Shown: positions 3,158 through 38,987 of the stretch, in pieces | How the letters are laid out: each line of letters starts with the position of its first letter | Position numbering within the stretch: position 1 is the stretch's first letter | From: Saccharofermentans sp. | GTDB lineage: Bacteria; Bacillota_A; Clostridia; Saccharofermentanales; Saccharofermentanaceae | DNA length: 48,307 nt | Direction of reading: 5' to 3' | Assembly: GCA_024695565.1 (NCBI GenBank) | Contig: JAILHX010000051.1 | Location: forward strand, 1-48,307 | Made by a program: the position numbers and the translations under genes | The notes under the pieces: model-generated | Seen by the model: the letters and a program-made list of their open reading frames with translations, nothing else | Told to the model about the DNA's origin: nothing | Databases searched by the model: none

Positions 3158-3412
3158 TACCGACTAAAACTTGGTTTTCTCGATTTTAGTAGGTAATTTG
3201 GTTCAAGTTACGGCGCTCGAAAATGAACAGACTACCGACTAAAATCTGTTTTCTCGTTTTTAGTAGGTAATTGGGTTCAGTTACAGCGCTCGAAAATGAA
3301 CAGTACTACCCACTAAAATGTTAAAACACGGATTTAGTCGGTAATTTGAATGCACTATGCAAAATCAACTACCGACCAAAAACATAAACCACAGATATAG
3401 CCGGTATATACC
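3158..3412. repeat. four tandem palindromic units, TACCGACTAAAA family
   Basis: Units begin at 3158, 3233, 3307 and 3370 (spacing 75, 74 and 63). Each opens with TACCGACTAAAA or a variant and continues to its complement, such as TTTTAGTAGGTA. Units 1 and 2 also share a second part ending GCGCTCGAAAATGAACAG. Units 3 and 4 are more diverged. The array fills most of the gene-free stretch between the aldo/keto reductase terminator and the mgtE promoter. No coding potential is seen. Confidence 0.85.
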
Positions 3413-9116: not shown

Positions 9117-9291
9117 TTCCCGAAAACATATTCTAAAAGACTGCCCGGGCGGTCAGCTTTTTAGCTAACTTTTTTCGCGATTTTGTTAGCTAAAAAGTTA
9201 GCTTTTGCAAAAATCCAACATTTCAGCTAACAAAACACCCGTAAATTGTTAGCCAAAATGCTGACGCTGTTCGGGTGACACACGAAAACAT
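9117..9291. repeat. nested palindrome locus, TTAGCTAAC half-site, flanked by CGAAAACAT
   Basis: From 9151, GTCAGC-TTTTT-AGCTAAC is followed by a T-rich loop and then GTTAGCT-AAAAA-GTTAGCT. A second nested palindrome ends GTTAGC-CAAAAT-GCTGAC at about 9266. The 9-mer CGAAAACAT occurs at 9121-9129 and 9283-9291. A related copy of the palindrome lies at about 37080-37163. It sits between convergent genes; no coding potential is seen. Confidence 0.8.
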
Positions 9292-13374: not shown

Positions 13375-13405
13375 CTTGTACATTTTTTTACACTTCCGGC
13401 ATCGA

Positions 13406-13459
13406 AAAGTGTACGGTTCAGTGTAAATTGAAGCCGATTTACAGCGGTCCGTACACTTT
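13406..13459. repeat. nested palindrome, AGTGTA half-site
   Basis: The outer arms AAAGTGTACGG (13406-13416) and CCGTACACTTT (13449-13459) are perfect. Inside, AGTGTAAA and TTTACA repeat the half-site, so the order is half-site, spacer, half-site, loop, complement, spacer, complement. It is part of a 605-base gene-free stretch (13322-13926). Confidence 0.8.
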
Positions 13460-13542
13460 GGAGGGCAAAAAAGGTACAAAAAATGCAAACGGTTTTCCGA
13501 CATCGTCTGCATGGTCACCGCCGGATAGGCGCGGGGAAATTC

Positions 13543-13720
13543 CGCGCTCAGTTTGCCCGAGAAAAAGTAAATCCGTGCCAACTTACTCAGATTCGGGCAA
13601 AAAGCGTGTCTGATTTGCCCGGAAAAAAGTAAATCCGTACAAACTTACTCAGAACTGGGCAAAAACAGCGCTCAGTTTGCCAGAAAAAAAGTAAATCGAC
13701 TTCCAACTACTCGATTACAA
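13543..13720. repeat. three tandem palindromic units, TTTGCCC family
   Basis: Units begin near 13543, 13604 and 13668 (spacing about 61-64). Each has TTTGCCC, then AAAAGTAAATC, then AACTTACTC, and (in the first two) the complement GGGCAAA. AAGTAA and TTACT form an inner stem inside the TTTGCCC/GGGCAAA outer stem. The third unit is shortened. Confidence 0.8.
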
Positions 13721-13723
13721 CGC

Positions 13724-13773
13724 GCGGGCGATTTTTGGGCGTTTTTGAAGTCATTTCCGCCCGCCAAAACGCC
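13724..13773. repeat. nested palindrome, GGGCG half-site
   Basis: GCGGGCG-ATTTTT-GGGCG (13724-13741), a short loop, then CGCCCGCC-AAAA-CGCC (13758-13773). It has the same architecture as the other intergenic elements but an unrelated half-site. Further GGGCG/CGCCC pieces continue to about 13826. The remaining bases up to the next gene show nothing else. Confidence 0.7.
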
Positions 13774-28445: not shown

Positions 28446-29897
28446 ATGCCAATGATAAACATCAGGGATCTGACCTTCGGTTACGACGGTTCAGACATAA
28501 CACTTTTCAGCGATGTCAACGTGACTATCGATACAACATGGAAGCTTGCTCTCGCCGGCCGCAACGGCCGAGGCAAGACCACTTTCTTCAAGCTCTTAAA
28601 AGGCGAATTAGACCACGCCGGAACGATCACGGGCGTACCGCCTGTCATCGAATTCCCGATGGATGAACTGCCCGACGCAGAAGAGTGGAGAGTACGCAAA
28701 GAATTGAATCTCATGGGCGCTGACCCCGACATCATGTGGCGCCCGCAGGAGACCTTATCAGGCGGCGAACGCACCAAGCTGATGCTCGCATATCTCTTCG
28801 CCGAAGACGGCATCTATCCGCTCATCGACGAGCCCACGAACCACTTGGACCGTCAGGGCAGAGAAGCAGTCGCTTCGTATCTTGCGTCCAAAGAAGGCTT
28901 CATCCTTATCTCTCATGACCGCGCATTTTTGGACCGCTGTACGGATCACACACTGGTCATTACGCGTTCGGGTATCGAGCTCGTGAACGCGACCTTCAGC
29001 ACATGGTGGGAGAACAACGAGCAGCGTCAGGAATCAGAGCTTGCGCGCAACAACCAGATCAAAAAAGAGATGGCATCGATCGATGCTGCCATGAAGAAAA
29101 ATGCGCAGTGGTCGAGCAAAGCCGAAGCAAGTAAGAGCCGCAACAATCCGCAGGGCTCGGAAGACCATTTCCGCAGGGCCTTTGAGGCGAAGAAGGCAAG
29201 TAAGCTCATGTCTCTGTCGAAGAACTTGGAGCACCGCAACGAGCGCAAGTTAGAAGAAAAGCAGTCGCTGCTTAAGGATTTGGAGCGCGAGCAGACGCTT
29301 AAGATATTCGGTTCGTCGCATCATGATAAGAAGCCGATAATCCTTAAGGACGTGACCGTCATGCGCGACGGAGACGTCGTTGCAAGCGGCATCAATCTGG
29401 TCGTTGAGCAGGGGCAGAAGATATCGTTAGAGGGCCCCAACGGCTGCGGCAAGAGCACGCTCATAAAGTTCCTGACGGGCTCTGATGAGAGCATCACTGC
29501 AGATGGAGATATCCACATCGCAAAGGGTCTCAAGATCTCTTATGTCGGCCAGGACACGTCAGTTCTCGAAGGGTGCATCTACGATATCGCCGACGAGCGC
29601 GGCTGTGATAAGACACAGTTCTCTACGATCCTGGTCAAGATGGGCTTTACCAAAGAGATGCTCTACCGCGACGTCGACGCGCTGTCTCTCGGGCAGAAAA
29701 AGTTCGTCATGCTCGCTATGTCTTTGTGCGAGTGCGCAGACGTGTATCTCTGGGACGAGCCGCTGAACTATATTGACGTATATATGCGTAAAGAAATCGA
29801 GCGCCTGATCAAAAACAGCGATGTAACAATGTTATTTGTCGAGCACGACCGCGCCTTTGTCGAGAGCGTGGCCGACGGGCGCGTGGAGATGGGGTGA
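28446..29897 (+). CDS. ABC-F family ribosome-protection-type ATPase, Lsa-like
   Basis: 483 residues, soluble, with two ATP-binding cassettes and no membrane helices. NBD1 has GRNGRGKTT (38-46), LSGGERTK and PLIDEPTNHLD. NBD2 has GPNGCGKST, LSLGQKK (a variant signature) and LWDEPLNYID. The inter-domain linker, about residues 185-280, is charged and helical; in Lsa/Vga proteins it reaches into the ribosome to dislodge lincosamide, streptogramin A or pleuromutilin drugs. The N-terminal third reads closely like Lsa(A) from memory (TWKLALAGRNGRGKTT, WRP, PLIDEPTNHLD). AGGAGG precedes the ATG. The leader ORF upstream supports an antibiotic-inducible gene; whether it confers resistance is not shown. 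Confidence 0.9.
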   Translation: MPMINIRDLTFGYDGSDITLFSDVNVTIDTTWKLALAGRNGRGKTTFFKLLKGELDHAGTITGVPPVIEFPMDELPDAEEWRVRKELNLMGADPDIMWRPQETLSGGERTKLMLAYLFAEDGIYPLIDEPTNHLDRQGREAVASYLASKEGFILISHDRAFLDRCTDHTLVITRSGIELVNATFSTWWENNEQRQESELARNNQIKKEMASIDAAMKKNAQWSSKAEASKSRNNPQGSEDHFRRAFEAKKASKLMSLSKNLEHRNERKLEEKQSLLKDLEREQTLKIFGSSHHDKKPIILKDVTVMRDGDVVASGINLVVEQGQKISLEGPNGCGKSTLIKFLTGSDESITADGDIHIAKGLKISYVGQDTSVLEGCIYDIADERGCDKTQFSTILVKMGFTKEMLYRDVDALSLGQKKFVMLAMSLCECADVYLWDEPLNYIDVYMRKEIERLIKNSDVTMLFVEHDRAFVESVADGRVEMG

Positions 29898-29905
29898 CGG
29901 ATTTG

Positions 29906-30380
29906 TTCAGTCAAAACTTCAGTCGCATGACGGAACTTTTGACTGAAGTTTTCAGAGCACTTAAAAATCCCGTTAGTTTTCCCGTTACATAACGGAATTT
30001 CTAACGGGATTTTTGCTTTACCCGCTCAAAATCCCGTTGATTTTCCCGTTAGTAAGCGGGATTTTCAACGGAGTTTTCTGCCCGGTCCCAAGAATACGTT
30101 TTTCGATGCGTAGGCAAACGTACTTTTAAACGCATTTTTCGCCAAAAACGGCCTAAATTACGTTTTTTAATGCGTAACCATACGTATTCAAAAACGTATT
30201 TTCAGCCCAAAACACGCCAAAATACGTTTTTCGATGCGTTCCTATACGCATCCAAAAACGCACTCAGAAAAAACTATGGTAAAACATATGGCTCAGGCCA
30301 TACTTTTTACCATAGAAATCGCCTCAAAACCCCGAAAACTATGGCAAAACATATGGCTTAGACCATACTTTTTACCATAG
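29906..30380. repeat. four successive families of nested palindromes (A, B, C, D)
   Basis: A 475-base gene-free array after the ABC-F gene. A (29906-29955): half-site TTCAGTC, one unit. B (29963-30014, 30028-30077): half-site CCCGTTA, two units. C (about 30093-30142, 30158-30203, 30221-30262): half-sites ATACGT and ATGCGT, three units. D (30274-30315, 30339-30380): half-site TATGG(C/T), two units. Each unit reads half-site, T/A-rich spacer, half-site, loop of a few bases, then the complements in mirror order. The families share no half-site sequence. B1 also resembles a bidirectional terminator (A5 left, T5 right) and may end the ABC-F transcript. Short ORFs here are by-products. Confidence 0.88.
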
Positions 30381-30491: not shown

Positions 30492-30878
30492 TTAGAGATC
30501 CATTTTCTTGAGCTCTGCAACAACTGCGTCAACCTGCTCCTGAGCGAGCTTGTTGTTCTTGCCGCCGAGCTTACCGAGGCTTGAGATACCGCCTGTGAGA
30601 TCGTCGAGGATAGCATTCTTAACCAGGTTATCAACGCCTGCCTGCTCTGATCTCATGACTGTGAACTTGTTGCCTTCCTTGCCGCCGAACCAGCCCTGTG
30701 TGATCTGGCACTGATTGTTTCTGTCGATTGCGGGGAATGCGATAACATAAGCGAATCCCTGCTTTACAAGCTGAGGCTTACCGGGGGTAAACTCATGATC
30801 CTTGATTGCCTCATAGAGAGACTCAACTGAGTAGCTGTTCTTTGTTTCTACCTTTACCTGCTTGATTCCAAAAGCCAT
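30492..30878 (-). CDS. hypothetical protein, 128 residues
   Basis: A small soluble protein. There is no signal peptide; it has a central FAYVIAFPAID beta strand, GWFGGKEGNKF, and a glycine/leucine-rich segment (LTGGISSLGKLGGK) before a charged C-terminal helix. I do not recognise the family. The ATG at 30878 follows AGGAGG; an upstream in-frame ATG at 30938 lacks a site and lies inside a leader hairpin. It has its own promoter and terminator, so it is monocistronic, and an operator-like inverted repeat overlaps its promoter. The zinc-ribbon pair lies just upstream on the same strand. Confidence 0.8.
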   Translation of the reverse strand: MAFGIKQVKVETKNSYSVESLYEAIKDHEFTPGKPQLVKQGFAYVIAFPAIDRNNQCQITQGWFGGKEGNKFTVMRSEQAGVDNLVKNAILDDLTGGISSLGKLGGKNNKLAQEQVDAVVAELKKMDL

Positions 30879-30900
30879 ATAAACCTCCTGAATTTTGGAC

Positions 30901-31000
30901 GGGATAAGTGTTATCCCAAGATTCAAAAAAGTGATCACCCGTGATGCGGTTCATCATCAATTCTCACTAAAAATTTTACCAAAGTATCACTTTTTTTCAA
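30901..31000 (-). promoter_or_regulatory. promoter, inverted repeat and leader hairpin of the hypothetical gene
   Basis: On the minus strand, -35 TTGAAA (30995-31000), a 16-base spacer and an extended -10 TGGTAAAAT (TAAAAT at 30973-30978). ATCACTTTTTT (30986-30996) and AAAAAAGTGAT (30925-30935) form a perfect 11-base inverted repeat spanning the start. GGGATAA-GTG-TTATCCC (30901-30917) is a perfect hairpin right before the ribosome site. Confidence 0.6.
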
Positions 31001-36878: not shown

Positions 36879-36977
36879 AACAAAATTCCTTAAATCATTT
36901 CAGGTTGATTTCAACTTCGGGTCTGATAATTCAATCATCAGGAACGACAAATTAGTTCTCATACCCTCCCCCAAAAA

Positions 36978-37020
36978 CAAAGGGGCTGTCCCGATAAGTG
37001 ACAGCCCCTCTTCTGTTTTA
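36978..37020. terminator. bidirectional terminator between convergent genes
   Basis: AGGGGCTGTC (36981-36990) pairs with GACAGCCCCT (37000-37009). There is an A run on the left and CTTCTGTTTT on the right, so it serves both sides. Confidence 0.85.
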
Positions 37021-37043: not shown

Positions 37044-37163
37044 CAGCGTCTGCATTTTGTCTCACTTTTATCGGCCATTTTGTTAGCTGAAAAGTTGGAT
37101 TTTGCCAAAATCCAACTTTTTGTCCAACTTTTTGGCCGCAAATTGTCAGCTAAAATGCTGACG
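37044..37163. repeat. second copy of the TTAGCTAAC-type nested palindrome
   Basis: AAAAGTTGGATTTTG pairs with AAAATCCAACTTTT around 37089-37119, and GTCAGC-TAAAAT-GCTGAC lies at 37145-37162. The order of elements and several words (TTTTGTTAGCT, CAAATTGT, AAAATGCTGACG) match the locus at 9151-9266, so the two are related copies. Both lie between convergent genes. Confidence 0.75.
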
Positions 37164-38904: not shown

Positions 38905-38987
38905 GGATATTACTCTTTTGCCGCTTCAAACAGGTCCTCGGATGCCAAGGCATCCTGCGGAACTCGCGGCTCAAAAGAGTAATATCC
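38905..38987. repeat. long 83-base inverted repeat after corA
   Basis: GGATATTACTCTTTT (38905-38919) pairs perfectly with AAAAGAGTAATATCC (38973-38987), with GCCGC/GCGGC continuing the stem. The inner part holds a second perfect hairpin, GGATGCC-AA-GGCATCC. No T run follows, and it ends 24 bases before the methyltransferase start. It is a foldback element or a structured leader. Confidence 0.75.

Follow-up and report, generated by a model that had tools for sequence, protein, structure and literature searches.

Repetitive extragenic palindromic (REP) elements and REPINs, according to the portions of one account drawn on here (PMC3733652), are extragenic palindromes at gene 3′ ends that occur as several families per genome and in head-to-head pairs, with a dedicated protein gene beside some of them. 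Here, we describe palindrome arrays of a different construction in a 48,307-nucleotide stretch of DNA from Saccharofermentans sp. (GenBank assembly GCA_024695565.1, contig JAILHX010000051.1, positions 1 to 48,307, forward strand), the whole of which is called the window. The array at positions 29906–30380 lies between two convergent genes and is composed of eight palindromic units in 475 bases, belonging to four letter families with 1, 2, 3, and 2 units; the original prediction had given exactly these counts, and all eight units were located. We consider it probable that such a unit is a cluster of 7-base sites for a many-copy family of reader nucleases, taking this partnership scheme as a whole. 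The array and its neighbours are arranged as follows.

28446..29897, + strand, open reading frame, left neighbour of the array, which we take from its sequence to encode an ABC-F-type ATPase
29906..29947, array unit 1, half-site TTCAGTC four times, the third copy reading TTCCGTC
29968..30009, array unit 2, half-site TCCCGTT
30032..30073, array unit 3, half-site TCCCGTT, diverged
30093..30136, array unit 4, half-site ATRCGT
30157..30200, array unit 5, half-site ATRCGT
30222..30263, array unit 6, half-site ATRCGT
30274..30315, array unit 7, half-site TATGG, 52 bases after unit 6 (64 minus 12)
30339..30380, array unit 8, half-site TATGG
30492..30938, − strand, open reading frame, right neighbour of the array, convergent gene of unknown function with a relative in genome G001 (labels beginning with G, L, or C are our own for genomes, loci, and contigs)

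Each unit follows the plan X-n5-X-loop-X′-n5-X′, in which the starts of neighbouring half-sites are 12 bases apart in all eight units. The dyad centres are at 29926, 29988, 30052, 30114, 30178, 30242, 30294, and 30359, so that successive centres are 62, 64, 62, 64, 64, 52, and 65 bases apart; since six of the seven steps are 62–65 and the other is short by 12, the lattice continues over the family borders. An exact search for four 5-base half-sites found three units in the window and none in 20 whole-window shuffles, and the mean over 500 shuffles of the array region was 0.008 units, which supports the original prediction that the nested arrangement is non-random. A tolerant search of the window's intergenic DNA gave eight units at spacing 12 and never more than two at any of the other spacings between 8 and 40. 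Half-site identity is 0.815 within window units and 0.516 between them. Contrary to the original prediction, the four families are not wholly unrelated, since a G at half-site position 5 is common to 86–92% of half-sites in 36 dyad-aligned units from the window, G006, G028, and G033. A-tracts and T-tracts flank the aligned units.

The arrays were compared with several described systems. A REP is one tagged hairpin, whereas direct half-sites are paired here on a 12-base step, and RAYT is a Y1 enzyme, whereas the candidate partner described below is a PD-(D/E)XK-like protein with many diverged paralogs. A RAYT or Y1 partner was considered and rejected, the Y1_Tnp family (PF01797) having no match in five of six relatives' genomes (G001, G006, G033, G021, and G009) and two 22-position pieces in the sixth (G028). 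No GTAG or CGTC tag is common to the families in the unit alignment; by eye, CGTC-like tips are seen in two long-loop elements of the window, and GTAG lies within a half-site of G001 instead of standing as an unpaired tag. Because the defining enzyme test fails and the DNA architecture differs, the system is not classed as REP/RAYT. Integron attC sites are also palindromes, in which boxes of ~7 bases form two pairs separated by spacers of ~5 bases; within an attC arm, the boxes are inverted and unlike each other, whereas the arm boxes of the present units are direct and nearly equal. Clustered regularly interspaced short palindromic repeat (CRISPR) arrays, as judged from their repeats, consist of near-identical repeats with unique spacers, whereas adjacent units here differ in letters at constant geometry. 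Intrinsic terminators could account for the stems and T-tracts, but not for the repeated half-site and its spacing. To the extent of the literature portions reviewed, the original prediction was right that ordinary terminators and REPs fail to explain the architecture. Neither such arrays nor the protein family were described in the portions of the searched literature that were consulted, where REP/RAYT work was the nearest topic. Rfam also gave no match in the window at gathering score.

The same geometry is found with other letters in relatives. Six sequence sets, comprising the window and parts of the genomes G001, G028, G006, G021, and G033 (153 kb of intergenic DNA), gave 40 four-half-site matches at spacing 12, whereas each of the remaining spacings in the 8–40 range gave 0–6. 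In a model-free scan, 37 of 596 intergenic regions contain 7-mers that recur 12 bases apart, compared with 1–12 regions in ten dinucleotide-shuffled sets and a mean of 8.9 over distances of 7–140; the next-ranked distances are 63, 11, 52, 45, and 64. Low-complexity half-sites were dropped in the scans. Tandem units 64 bases apart with different letters occur at L042, L060, L072, L092, L105, L110, L129, and L130. In three genomes that lack the protein family (200 kb, 28.6 kb of it intergenic), a single weak AT-rich match was obtained, compared with the 40 in 153 kb. The spacing-12 regions are divergent in 2 of 37 cases and convergent in 10 of 37, compared with 141 and 71 of all 596 regions, respectively; the arrays thus resemble the REP/REPIN-RAYT systems in being extragenic and mostly situated after genes, in convergent or unidirectional contexts.

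The half-site letters follow the genome more than the place. Behind the ABC-F gene, the syntenic site carries the four families in the window, CTACAC/GTGCA in G001, and TCACAGC in G033; others, L003 and G028 among them, have no array there. The site after the 8096–9109 gene carries GTTAGCT in the window and GGTGGAA in G028, both in the long-loop form (type 2, see below), and none in G033. After the 35727–36878 gene, three half-sites read GTTGGA in the window versus GTCGGA in G033, and one intervening spacer is conserved. Distant loci within one genome often share letters, as do window positions 9185 and 37082 (GTTAGC/GTTGGA), three G028 loci (RTGGAA), and four G006 loci (TGRRCGG). Between genomes, when the whole array was searched as DNA against 59 relatives, only two short stretches matched, each of them to unit 1, and the TTCAGTC family of this unit, including its odd third copy, is also present at L042 in G028.

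Whether the palindromes reflect hairpin formation or protein sites was assessed with 36 units of the kind seen in the array (type 1; loop of ~4, linker of ~22), one odd-length unit of 37 having been dropped. Agreement was 0.788 between hairpin partners, 0.782 between direct partners, and 0.780 between cross pairs (p=0.83 and 0.48). That hairpin partners are no closer than direct partners speaks against the copying of arms and favours four equivalent sites for a protein, a pattern that, judged from sequence, would be expected under selection by a DNA-binding protein. The original prediction that a process builds the palindromes from local sequence is contradicted by this missing bias and by the presence of the same letters at distant loci and beside genes of the protein family. 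A neutral origin through template switching and slippage is accordingly very improbable: tandem units and a half-site identity higher within units (0.78) than between units of one locus (0.61) or of different loci (0.45) would fit such growth, but the spacing is fixed across species and letters are common to separate loci and to the partner gene. It is also quite improbable, though less so, that the units serve at gene ends as RNA hairpins or as tandem terminators of transcription in both directions, with the repeated half-site as a by-product. Their position at 3′ ends, the flanking A-tracts and T-tracts, and the folding of seven of the eight window units as single strands at z of −4 or lower are consistent with this explanation, and the folding implies that an RNA hairpin role may still exist. 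An RNA hairpin, however, does not need two equal half-sites at 12-base spacing, and the balance between hairpin and direct partners is again unfavourable. Spacer pairing barely exceeds that after shuffling across the 36 units (0.47 vs 0.38, p=0.015), and ordinary terminators adjoin several elements by eye.

The candidate partner was reached from a gene in G001 that is flanked by two CTACAC elements. It belongs to a family of unannotated ~260-residue proteins with a highly variable N-terminal domain and a PD-(D/E)XK-like domain. The family was matched in 36 of 59 genomes, namely in all 35 of G001–G035 and in one of the 24 of G036–G059; the largest number of matches in a single genome was 14 (G001, where 11 separate places are listed). 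When 299 genomes of the phylum were searched with the q3 query, one of three used, only G001 matched at E≤1e-12. Protein databases contain a few relatives, entered as hypothetical proteins of Saccharofermentans, Lachnospiraceae, and Butyrivibrio. The members scanned had no match above the curated cut-offs of Pfam and NCBIfam, and none better than E 0.3 was obtained among PDB sequences; in PHROGs, the nuclease part alone weakly matched 'Holliday junction resolvase' (best E 1e-6). Column entropies in two alignments, A1 and A2, are 2.17 and 1.72 bits for the N-domain strand region and 1.87 and 1.57 bits for the long helix, and 0.80 bits in both for the nuclease domain. E148, D180, and E195 are invariant in a 61-sequence alignment; in a 52-sequence alignment, E146 and D178 are invariant and E193 is conserved at 90% or more. 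Structures were predicted with a mean local distance difference test score (pLDDT) of 90 and 81. Foldseek found no match at E≤0.001 with the first model, and a second aligner placed the C-domain of the models best on Bax1, TnsA of Tn7, Can2, and Hjc, a structural likeness that was compared at the C-domain.

The C-terminal nuclease segment also matches PDC-S68, a PADLOC candidate defence protein, with a best E of 1.6e-9; PDC-S68 models have ~1,200 positions, compared with the ~260 residues here, and another N-terminus. This resemblance and the strong N-domain variation between copies would suit a selfish or defensive nuclease that attacks foreign DNA bearing the half-site, with the arrays as decoys that titrate it or mark self. 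We regard such a function as unlikely: no relative was confirmed among the viral_contigs pattern matches, the q3 protein matched none in plasmids, and the strict 12/64 geometry would be needless for simple decoys.

Members of the family share syntenic slots, S1 in G028, G021, G009, and G033, and S2 in G001, G009, G008, and G005, and the palindromes beside the slot members differ between species by eye. In other genomes, the slots are empty, with the neighbours 49–234 bases apart so that the gene would not fit; G028 retains one GTCACAC unit in an empty slot. From the shared slots, empty slots, and differing palindromes, we infer that the genes are vertically inherited, gained, and lost, with specificity changing in place. 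A TTGTCG repeat occurs at least twice within 250 bases upstream of 30 of 31 q12 genes, and upstream of 5 of 25 and 5 of 23 genes in the other two groups; of the 23 genes that the subfamily sorting put in q3, five have the q12 repeat and were perhaps sorted wrongly. The protein family seems to have common operators. TTGTCGG near L055 and L046 was considered as an array half-site and rejected, being this promoter-side repeat of q12 genes. The repeat lies upstream of the q12 genes at L235, L249, L240, L261, and others, and several q3 genes have in common a CCCCC...TTGAGACTTT...TGAGACT stretch. The retention of genes in the same slots, the promoter-side repeat, and the preference of the spacing-12 regions for convergent over divergent gene pairs could be explained by a domesticated host function, in which a chromosome-organising or 3′-end-insulating complex uses the nuclease fold for binding, or under tight control, and the arrays are kept by selection instead of spreading. 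This is, in our estimate, as unlikely as the decoy function, because one slot has different half-sites in different species, some slots lack the gene, and in both alignments two acidic residues are invariant and the third nearly so.

The genes are linked to palindromes. Many of the fetched copies are accompanied by palindromes, such as CGTAAAC on both sides (L221), TTCAGGT twice (L252), TCACAGT (L267), TGAACGG (L258), TGTACA three times (L272), and TTGCCCC four times (L232). For the 63 fetched family genes, excluding duplicates and proteins below 200 amino acids, a palindrome score of at least 33 within 450 nucleotides was reached by 23 of 42 genes of the two main subfamilies and by 21 of 91 genes matched for intergenic flank content (p=0.0006); this comparison supersedes an unmatched-flank background of 30 of 606 genes. 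In the remaining subfamilies, 5 of 21 genes have a palindrome. In a larger set with uniform scoring, the median loop is 6.5 with q3 (12 of 20 genes have a palindrome) versus 12 with q12 (17 of 33; p=0.037), members below 40% identity to the three queries being also excluded here.

Half-sites beside the genes are dispersed in part. Of eight whose genomes were available in bulk, four recur as paired inverted clusters, among the six sets only in their own genome: TTCAGGT and AGTCGGA in G033, TGRRCGG in G006, and ACTACAC in G001; the count of three TTCAGGT clusters includes the gene's own locus. With a looser core, RTGGAA likewise recurs in G028 only, at three loci of which one is the gene's own. 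The AGTGCGT/AATGCGT half-sites beside the q3 gene of G001 (L243) have their sole match in 1.77 Mb at window position 30093, in the ATRCGT family. Three further half-sites come from elsewhere: that of G009, TCACAGT, is seen again in G028, and that of G024, TGTACA, in three sets; CGTAAAC, from G027, was found in no set. Whole-genome searches found eight CTACAC pairs in G001 (control 0) and at most six elsewhere, and ten TTCAGG pairs in G033 (control 0); G021 also has ten (control 1), so this half-site is common to several species. Several results weigh against the partnership. Half of the testable gene-side half-sites were not found dispersed in their own genome, three of the eight being found nowhere in the six sets. 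The half-sites of L235 in G028 and L240 in G001 gave no paired cluster. In addition, many family members have no visible palindrome, and short-loop arrays occur in G028, yet there is no q3 gene there.

The window also contains type 2 elements, which have a long loop, direct pairs ordered P′-16-P-10-P′ or similar, and, by hand count, a period of 64 as well.

9151..9266 (ends by eye), type 2 element, half-sites GTTAGC/GTTGGA/GTCAGC, between convergent genes
13377..13492 (ends by eye), type 2 element, half-site GTGTAC/GTGTAA, downstream of a xylanase-like gene
37047..37163, type 2 element, half-sites GTTAGC/GTTGGA, with GTCGGA at matching places of the syntenic G033 site

Other repeats were noted. 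Beside the 13377 element, at 13560–13760, tandem repeats have GTAAATCC...ACTTACTC and TTTGCCC/GGGCAAA arms. A tandem palindrome series, ACCGACTAAAA ... TTTTAGTAGGT, with loops of ~13 follows a gene at 3160–3400 and by eye is unlike the 12-base type, and a perfect 16-base inverted repeat, GGATATTACTCTTTTG, has its arms 51 bases apart at 38905–38987. In other genomes, at L035 after the ABC-F gene and at L006 16775–16927, nested palindromes of a similar kind have another spacing, with half-sites ~22 apart by eye and units 53 apart. A conserved non-coding stretch, TTTCAGGTTGATTTCAACTT ... CATACCCTCCCCC, is found at window 36895–36985 and at about 115018–115150 of G001 C13 in differing gene contexts; it has no Rfam match in the window and is possibly an undescribed structured RNA.

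In the proposed partnership, each unit would present four DNA sites of 7 bases, equivalent to one another and placed on a 12-base step, two of them direct and two inverted. Each gene copy would encode an N-terminal reader domain fitting one half-site, joined to the conserved PD-(D/E)XK-like domain, so that two readers could occupy a direct pair and four a unit. The geometry would stay constant because the protein scaffold is constant, and when a reader changes, its own arrays, adjoining the gene and scattered at gene 3′ ends, would change along with it. The nuclease may cut or nick at or near an array and thereby copy arrays to other 3′ ends, as is supposed for RAYTs with REPINs. The window array is predicted to consist of four sub-arrays, each belonging to a different paralog in the short-loop subfamily (q3). 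By analogy, the system most likely operates as REP/RAYT populations do, with an enzyme and a DNA architecture that are unrelated to theirs. A fuller account can be offered only tentatively, in which a lineage-specific, undescribed system of evolvable-reader nucleases may maintain and spread arrays of constant geometry, with about ten paralogs in the richest genomes, each having a private half-site and its scattered arrays rewritten together.

These data suggest that, in rumen-type bacteria, a protein family is partnered with address tags of its own in a way not described before. Should this be confirmed, it would be a second, unrelated answer to the problem that REPs and RAYTs pose, namely the persistence, spread, and alteration of short extragenic palindromes in bacterial genomes. 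The many pairs of reader and half-site would then provide a natural table for learning how a small domain specifies seven bases.
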